The position numbers and the translations under genes are program-made. 64,000 nucleotides of DNA from Candidatus Nosocomiicoccus stercorigallinarum (GTDB lineage: Bacteria > Bacillota > Bacilli > Staphylococcales > Salinicoccaceae), in NCBI GenBank assembly GCA_019119225.1, contig DWXM01000071.1:1-64000 (forward strand). The letters run 5' to 3'. Below are positions 11,438 to 12,463 of the stretch, piece by piece (position 1 is the first letter of the stretch; every line of letters begins with the position of its first letter). A model generated the notes under the pieces. It ran no database searches and was not told where the DNA came from. It saw only the letters and a list, made by a program, of their open reading frames with translations.

Positions 11438-11466
11438 AAGCACTCCTCTAATAAGAGAAGTGCTTA
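11438..11466 (-). terminator. Terminator downstream of the 154-aa ORF
   Basis: Minus strand AAGCACTTCTC-TTATTA-GAGGAGTGCTTTTTTT. Confidence 0.8.
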
Positions 11467-11653
11467 TATTTAACATATTTATTATTTTTAGTTCGATTTT
11501 TGTTAAATAAACAGTTTTATTTAACACTTTTTAGTTGTTTGCATTCAACTTTGTTAGATAAAAAAATATATTTAACAAAAATCAGTCCTACAATCATAAA
11601 TATGTTAATTATCCTGATATATCTAACATATTCCGAGAATTTTTGTTAAATAA
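11465..11653. repeat. Palindrome array block 1: three 26-bp near-palindromes plus flanking half-sites
   Basis: 26-mers TGTT...AACA at 11501-11526, 11552-11577 and 11603-11628 (51-bp period). In-register right half-site at 11465-11475; left half-site from 11644. Confidence 0.93.
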
Positions 11654-11674
11654 GTTTAGATTAAGCTAGCAACC

Positions 11675-12139
11675 TTACCTAAACTTCTCTTTATGATGTT
11701 CAATGATATCCGGATGACTATTCAACATGTCTTCACCCTTTTGAGTTAACACATTTTCTTCATCAACAAAATCTAAAGTCTTTAACCACTTTAATTCATC
11801 TTTAAATTTCAACCCATACTCTTGTGAGAAAAACTTCGGAATTCGTTTACGATTCACATTCTTAAGCCACCAAAGCATAACAACGTGACCGAATACTAAC
11901 TCGTCGTCATTAATGAACGTCATATATGATTTATGCGGCAATAATGTTTTAGATAATTTAATTTGCTTTAACAGATTATGCGCATCCCCTTCAGAGGCAA
12001 TATACGGAATCTTATCGTATCCATCTTCACGATAATCCTGTTCTAGCTTCTCTCTAAGCGATAAAACACCATCACGCTCACGATCCTCACGACTCTTTTT
12101 AGAAAAGAAGAAATCTAAAAACTTTCCCACTACCTTCAC
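11675..12139 (-). CDS. Uncharacterised 154-aa protein with possible winged-helix C-terminus
   Basis: Intact ORF flanked by the two palindrome arrays. C-terminus ...LKWLKTLDFVDEENVLTQKGEDML resembles a wHTH wing/LTxKG motif (inference only). Confidence 0.7.
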   Translation of the reverse strand: MKVVGKFLDFFFSKKSREDRERDGVLSLREKLEQDYREDGYDKIPYIASEGDAHNLLKQIKLSKTLLPHKSYMTFINDDELVFGHVVMLWWLKNVNRKRIPKFFSQEYGLKFKDELKWLKTLDFVDEENVLTQKGEDMLNSHPDIIEHHKEKFR

Positions 12140-12215
12140 CTCTACTGAAACACTGTTAATTATAATGATAGCACATCTTTTATATAGTTTAACTAATGCT
12201 TCATAGTGGTATTTT

Positions 12216-12402
12216 TTTATTTTACAAAATCAAAGTCTCAATAAGGTATTTGTTAATTAAATACTTTTATTTAACATATTCATCTATTAATCCATATTTT
12301 TGTTAGATAAAATGATTTATTTAACAAAAATCAGTATAAACAACCAAAATTTGTTAATTATCCACGGATATCTAACAAAATCGCACATTTTTTGTTAAAT
12401 AA
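12216..12402. repeat. Palindrome array block 2, copy of block 1 offset by 750 bp
   Basis: 26-mers at 12251-12276, 12301-12326 and 12352-12377. Half-sites at 12216-12226 and from 12393. Offset from block 1 is 749-751 throughout. Confidence 0.93.
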
Positions 12403-12463
12403 AAGTCAAATCTATCATCAACTTCTCAACACTTCCTACCCTTCATCCTTTTAAAAAAATAAA

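Follow-up and report, generated by a model that had tools for sequence, protein, structure and literature searches.

The nearest known kinds of element to the arrays described here are the BOX, REP/BIME and MITE elements. BOX elements of Streptococcus pneumoniae and S. suis have been described by their extensive RNA secondary structure and by their transcription (PMC3049150). Like the arrays, they are intergenic, multi-copy and lineage-restricted, with copies that appear dormant (PMC3049150), and they consist of two end modules and variable inner modules, much as the arrays carry 1, 2, 3 and more palindromes between half-sites. In contrast to BOX, the arrays show no covariation that would support a conserved RNA stem-loop. 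Their inner unit, a 26-bp palindrome, recurs in a fixed 51-bp register, and each half-site takes one of two positions that differ by one helical turn. BIMEs have been reported as binding sites for several proteins, and REP/BIME sequences are also extragenic palindromes that occur in clusters with regular spacing (PMC2817692). However, REPs alternate in orientation and have an associated Y1 transposase, while no Y1 transposase was found in the Nosocomiicoccus genomes and the arms and layout of the arrays are unrelated to those of REPs. The STAR elements of staphylococci are interspersed intergenic repeats from the same bacterial order, but they are direct repeats, whereas the arrays are palindromes with spacers fixed in length and free in sequence (PMC3532100). 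MITEs resemble the arrays (PMC10969869) in being short, AT-rich and non-coding with inverted ends. They differ in that the internal sites of the arrays are under purifying selection, and no target-site duplication or parent transposon was found.

Plasmid or chromosomal centromere arrays (parS and the ParR/TubR type) are clustered sites in helical phase to which proteins bind cooperatively. The Nosocomiicoccus array works like such clustered phased sites, but no linked par operon was seen, copies occur over the whole chromosome in both orientations, and the site sequence does not match that of parS (TGTTTCACGTGAAACA). None of the Nosocomiicoccus papers that were retrieved deals with such repeats in its title or listed abstract. 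We file the array as a small interspersed repeat with an unusual constraint on duplex DNA.

The window, which is the whole 64,000-nucleotide stretch of Candidatus Nosocomiicoccus stercorigallinarum DNA that was analysed, contains two such elements, one on either side of a 154-aa open reading frame (ORF154). A repeat search returned two 104-nt copies, 79% alike and 749 bp apart, and four copies of a 31-nt palindrome. The features of the locus are:

11466-11475: left terminal half-site of element 1 (ATATTTAACA), 25 bp ahead of palindrome 1
11501-11526: palindrome 1 (M1) of element 1, TGTTAAATAAACAGTTTTATTTAACA
11552-11577: palindrome 2 (M2) of element 1, TGTTAGATAAAAAAATATATTTAACA, with an A-rich centre
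11603-11628: palindrome 3 (M3) of element 1, TGTTAATTATCCTGATATATCTAACA
11644-11653: right terminal half-site of element 1, TGTTAAATAA, 15 bp past palindrome 3
11675-12139, minus strand: ORF154, enclosed by elements 1 and 2
12217-12226: left terminal half-site of element 2 (TTATTTTACA), 24 bp ahead of palindrome 1
12251-12276: palindrome 1 (M1) of element 2
12301-12326: palindrome 2 (M2) of element 2
12352-12377: palindrome 3 (M3) of element 2, TGTTAATTATCCACGGATATCTAACA
12393-12402: right terminal half-site of element 2, TGTTAAATAA, 15 bp past palindrome 3

The palindromes and the lone left arms beginning at 11644 and 12393 lie exactly where a first-pass annotation of this DNA had placed them, and the block-to-block offsets of 749-751 bp that it gave were confirmed. 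It had also described a degenerate "module 0" ahead of each block; the right arm of this module is in register, but the sequence is the terminal half-site listed above and not a degenerate palindrome. The layout is not special to the enclosed reading frame, as ~15 copies are dispersed across the genome.

The palindromes follow the consensus TGTTARWTAW-N6-WTAWYTAACA, with 10-bp arms around a 6-bp centre. A complete element consists of a half-site, a gap of 15 or 25 bp, three palindromes separated by 25 bp each, a gap of 15 bp and a second half-site, with an overall length of ~180-190 bp; the half-sequences that close it are TTATTTA(A)CA on the left and TGTTAAATAA on the right. This architecture was measured in 46 three-palindrome elements from three Nosocomiicoccus genomes. 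Spacer 2 was 25 bp in all 46 elements, and spacer 1 was 25 bp in 40 and 24 bp in the other 6. Terminal half-sites stood at 15 bp from 61 of the 92 array ends and at 25 bp from 22, so that 83 of 92 ends carried the terminal inverted repeats at one of these two distances, while any other distance from 5 to 74 bp accounted for 0-2 half-sites each. The number of palindromes between terminal half-sites varies among elements and can be 1, 2, 3 or more. The 6-bp centres are AT-rich in the middle palindrome and more GC-rich in the outer two, most strongly in the third genome (G002), where G+C in the centre (of 6) was 0.50 for the middle palindrome against 2.25 and 3.88 for the outer ones. Mid-spacer G+C was 57% in G002 and 40-42% in the other two Nosocomiicoccus genomes. 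Another palindrome-like motif, TTTTTATC-N(5-10)-GATRAAAA, is found repeatedly at 15-50 bp beyond the terminal half-sites (L060, L110, L012:560-610 and L055:4800-4850).

Successive arms in an array are 20 or 30, 21, 30, 21, 30, 21 and 20 bp apart. At 10.2 bp/turn, the eight arms of each array give a phasing resultant of 0.987, which places all eight on one face of the DNA. The resultant falls to 0.58 at 10.5 bp/turn, where the arms would follow a slow twist, and the one-face arrangement therefore hinges on the helical repeat that is assumed. The proposal in the first-pass annotation that the sites share one face is supported by the conserved spacer length, the placement of half-sites at 15 or 25 bp and the resultant at 10.2 bp/turn. 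Runs of AAA/TTT also showed a 10.25-bp periodicity of 3.43, about ten standard deviations higher than the 1.39 +/- 0.19 of mononucleotide shuffles.

The 26-mer pattern, with up to two mismatches, matched the forward strand of the 1.39-Mb assembly 48 times against 1 match for a reversed-pattern control, which is more often than chance would give. Nearly all matches fall in triads with 51-bp spacing at ~15 intergenic loci, and isolated palindromes are nearly absent, since they occur always in arrays except for one weak match. The source genome carries ~15 array copies and a close relative 15-16; the third genome, of N. massiliensis type, carries more, often in tandem. The tandem arrays of G002 (L060, L059, L054, L055, L110 and L112) have a period of ~235-270 bp. 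A two-palindrome pattern at exactly 51 bp matched 27, 28 and 50 times in the three genomes of the genus, against 0 matches for the control. It was not matched in any of 154 other genomes of the order, and a looser version that allowed spacers from 15 to 40 bp found nothing in 399 other genomes sampled across the class. Within the genomes sampled, the element is confined to the genus Nosocomiicoccus. No arrays matched in viral contigs, plasmids or phages, and spread by phages or plasmids was rejected on this ground.

Array-bearing stretches of genome G000 align with G001 over long distances at ~85-96% identity with the arrays in place. In the third genome, arrays, or remnants of them at contig ends, are found at most loci common to the others, including hsp33-cysK, gltX-cysE, purC-MBL, moaB-moaC, recQ, glsB, corC-copZ, folE2 and others, and in G006, a genome of the sister genus, the loci compared contain plain intergenic DNA and no array. 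The element at the DUF1292-glsB locus is missing in G001 and present in the other two Nosocomiicoccus genomes, so not every copy is needed. Copies are intergenic, often near terminators and mixed in orientation, and most are flanked by ordinary conserved housekeeping genes with no cassette enclosed. Of 16 arrays, 9 lie between codirectional, 5 between convergent and 2 between divergent genes, compared to a background of 98, 17 and 15, respectively, so convergent sites are in slight excess at best. With this result and the mixed orientations, a preference for convergent genes or for a replication strand was rejected.

Substitutions were compared between two genomes at 13 orthologous array loci. 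Arms had changed at 29 of 779 sites (3.7%), against 94 of 647 in the spacers and 39 of 233 in the 6-bp centres (14.5-16.7%), and the arm rate was the lower one at 13 of 13 loci. For A/T sites alone, the arms had changed at 2.8% of sites versus ~12% (Fisher p=1.2e-10). Indels were found at 1 of 880 sites in spacers and centres and at 16 of 604 in the flanks (p=5e-6). The letters of the spacers are free to vary, then, while their length is nearly frozen, and these old fixed copies separate two constraints, one on the arm sequence and one on spacer length alone. Both arms and spacing are under selection, and local gene conversion could add to the conservation of the arms.

Taken together, the conserved arms, frozen spacer length, quantised half-sites and lack of covariation argue for a selected protein-binding array on double-stranded DNA and against RNA hairpins or dead repeats. 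The two blocks are a pair of copies of one intergenic element, ~180 bp long and specific to Nosocomiicoccus, which on balance probably serves as a multi-site double-stranded DNA docking array for a putative dimeric DNA-binding protein. Conserved half-sites and helically constrained spacing on double-stranded DNA, which are the marks of a phased protein-binding array, were both found. Each 26-bp palindrome would present two major-groove half-sites 21 bp, or two turns, apart; palindromes follow every 51 bp, or about five turns, and each end of the array is closed by one further half-site at a distance of two or three turns. With eight arms on one side of the helix, the protein might bridge or wrap the DNA cooperatively. 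We infer from this that the protein is a dimer, that it binds cooperatively along one face and that the role of the arrays is architectural.

Most copies predate the split of the three species and have stayed in place since then. Their scatter, in both orientations and at long-kept loci, is easier to reconcile with an architectural or chromosome-organising role than with the control of a single promoter. More tentatively, the ~15-25 phased arrays over the 1.5-Mb chromosome may form a genus-specific chromosome-organising system in which a putative dedicated dimeric protein bridges or anchors distant loci. Small interspersed repeats of bacteria have mostly been read as selfish or as RNA, and here the constraint suggests that a protein assembles on double-stranded DNA. 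Array sites at many loci of a very small genome could reveal a new chromosome-organising protein.

The strongest alternative is that the element is a selfish, non-autonomous mobile repeat, BOX-like or MITE-like, copied in trans by a recombinase or transposase without gain to the host; the arms would then be enzyme sites and the half-sites inverted ends. This would be consistent with a multi-copy, intergenic and genus-restricted repeat with inverted termini (TTATTTAACA...TGTTAAATAA), a varying number of modules (1, 2, 3 or more) and, in the third genome, tandem copies with a period of ~235-270 bp, and pneumococcal BOX elements have a like plan of two ends and variable inner modules (PMC3049150). 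Selfish elements also duplicate in tandem, as happens in N. massiliensis, and disperse in many copies, which counts against a docking array. However, a dead repeat would mutate evenly, yet at fixed old loci the rate of change in the arms is about a quarter of that in the spacers, and the spacer lengths are frozen; the neutral decay expected of a MITE after insertion is not seen at the orthologous loci. The Y1 transposase family (PF01797) is present in 0 of 3 Nosocomiicoccus genomes, and a REP-type transposase was rejected as the source for this reason. The tyrosine recombinases that score well above the others appear to be XerC/XerD-like, and the rest look sporadic. No target-site duplication was evident by eye around the ends, and neither a clean new insertion nor a parent transposon was seen; the boundaries of the one element-free allele, DUF1292-glsB in G001, do not align cleanly. 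We consider a purely selfish repeat unlikely.

A second alternative holds that the elements are recombination sites bounding mobile gene cassettes, in which a recombinase uses the palindromes as a core to insert or remove single genes. Three cases of a single gene or small insert between two elements were found: ORF154, a NERD-domain gene and a small peptide gene. The NERD-domain-like gene, assigned by eye, lies between two arrays in both G000 and G001 (L017:2029-3302 and L048:9455-10820). In G001, near-identical arrays flank a short hydrophobic, possibly bacteriocin-like 93-aa ORF together with a 59-aa ORF (L051:3330-4270), and G000 has a single array at the matching locus. The third genome has the LytTR, GMC and ORF154 genes apart. 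Its LytTR side shows a single expanded array followed by an IS3-type element, and on a different contig an IS3-type element stands beside the GMC oxidoreductase gene (G002 L108:1-1230), where G000 and G001 have ORF154; ORF154 itself is on yet another contig, next to an acetamidase gene and again between two arrays. The LytTR-side array in G002 (L052:295-600) contains extra 51-bp units, each made of spacer 1 and palindrome 2, and has thus expanded in exact 51-bp steps.

Two conserved arms of ~10 bp around a variable 6-bp centre would also resemble a recombinase core. The idea of cassette-boundary repeats, raised in the first-pass annotation, holds for these few copies, but most copies lie between conserved housekeeping genes and bound no cassette. 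The few moves can be explained by ordinary homologous recombination between repeats, and no matching recombinase was found. The tyrosine recombinases seen were presumed XerC/XerD-like enzymes and sporadic lower-scoring ones. Caution also applies to the gene moves in the third genome, a draft assembly whose contigs break at the elements. Dedicated recombination sites are therefore improbable. Recombination between copies seems to move or remove genes, for which homologous recombination is sufficient. In the docking-array reading, copies can lose or gain 51-bp units, duplicate in tandem and recombine, and a gene between two copies can be moved or lost in the process.

It was also suggested early on that the palindromes are tandem RNA hairpins, with each element encoding a structured RNA of three hairpins closed by a terminal stem. 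The folds of most single copies are indeed more stable than those of dinucleotide shuffles (z mostly -2 to -8), yet this excess is about equal on both strands, as expected of any inverted repeat. Under a three-hairpin model of 22 aligned elements, paired cells made up 85.0% versus 84.9% in shuffles, with covariation of 0.067 versus 0.066; a nested model scored slightly below its own shuffles with no covariation. The RNAalifold consensus energy was -4.4 kcal/mol with a covariation term of -0.33, Rfam gave no match to the element, and the spacers are free in sequence and fixed in length. A few modules do show paired symmetrical changes, such as TGTTA/TAACA to TGTGA/TCACA (L013:9623 versus L048:9607), and these count against the protein-array reading. 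With good folding energies that are alike on both strands and without covariation, the RNA-hairpin model was rejected as very improbable.

Least credible of all is an operator array for the 154-aa protein or the adjacent LytTR operon: the LytTR gene has element 1 upstream and ORF154 has element 2 upstream, but copies elsewhere occur in a variety of unrelated contexts, including the gaps between convergent genes. No Pfam domain was recognised in ORF154, and its predicted structure (mean pLDDT 50) is too poor for use. Regulon operators would be single or paired sites at promoters; these are arrays, 5 of 16 between convergent genes, and their dispersal in both orientations, mixed contexts and near-absence of isolated copies argue against a classical operator. 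A private operator of ORF154 was rejected because copies occur at many other loci, and the notion that the array serves the enclosed protein finds no support, as most copies do not flank it. ORF154 is cargo of the flanking elements and not a dedicated partner of the array, since arrays occur without it, and the two blocks are no private control device of one gene. The protein is ~30% identical to longer proteins in more distant relatives and 89% identical to an ORF of N. massiliensis NP2. Both other Nosocomiicoccus genomes carry ORF154, at 90-91% identity, together with the arrays; the refuting case set out in the first-pass annotation, close relatives with the reading frame but no palindromes, is not borne out by these two genomes.
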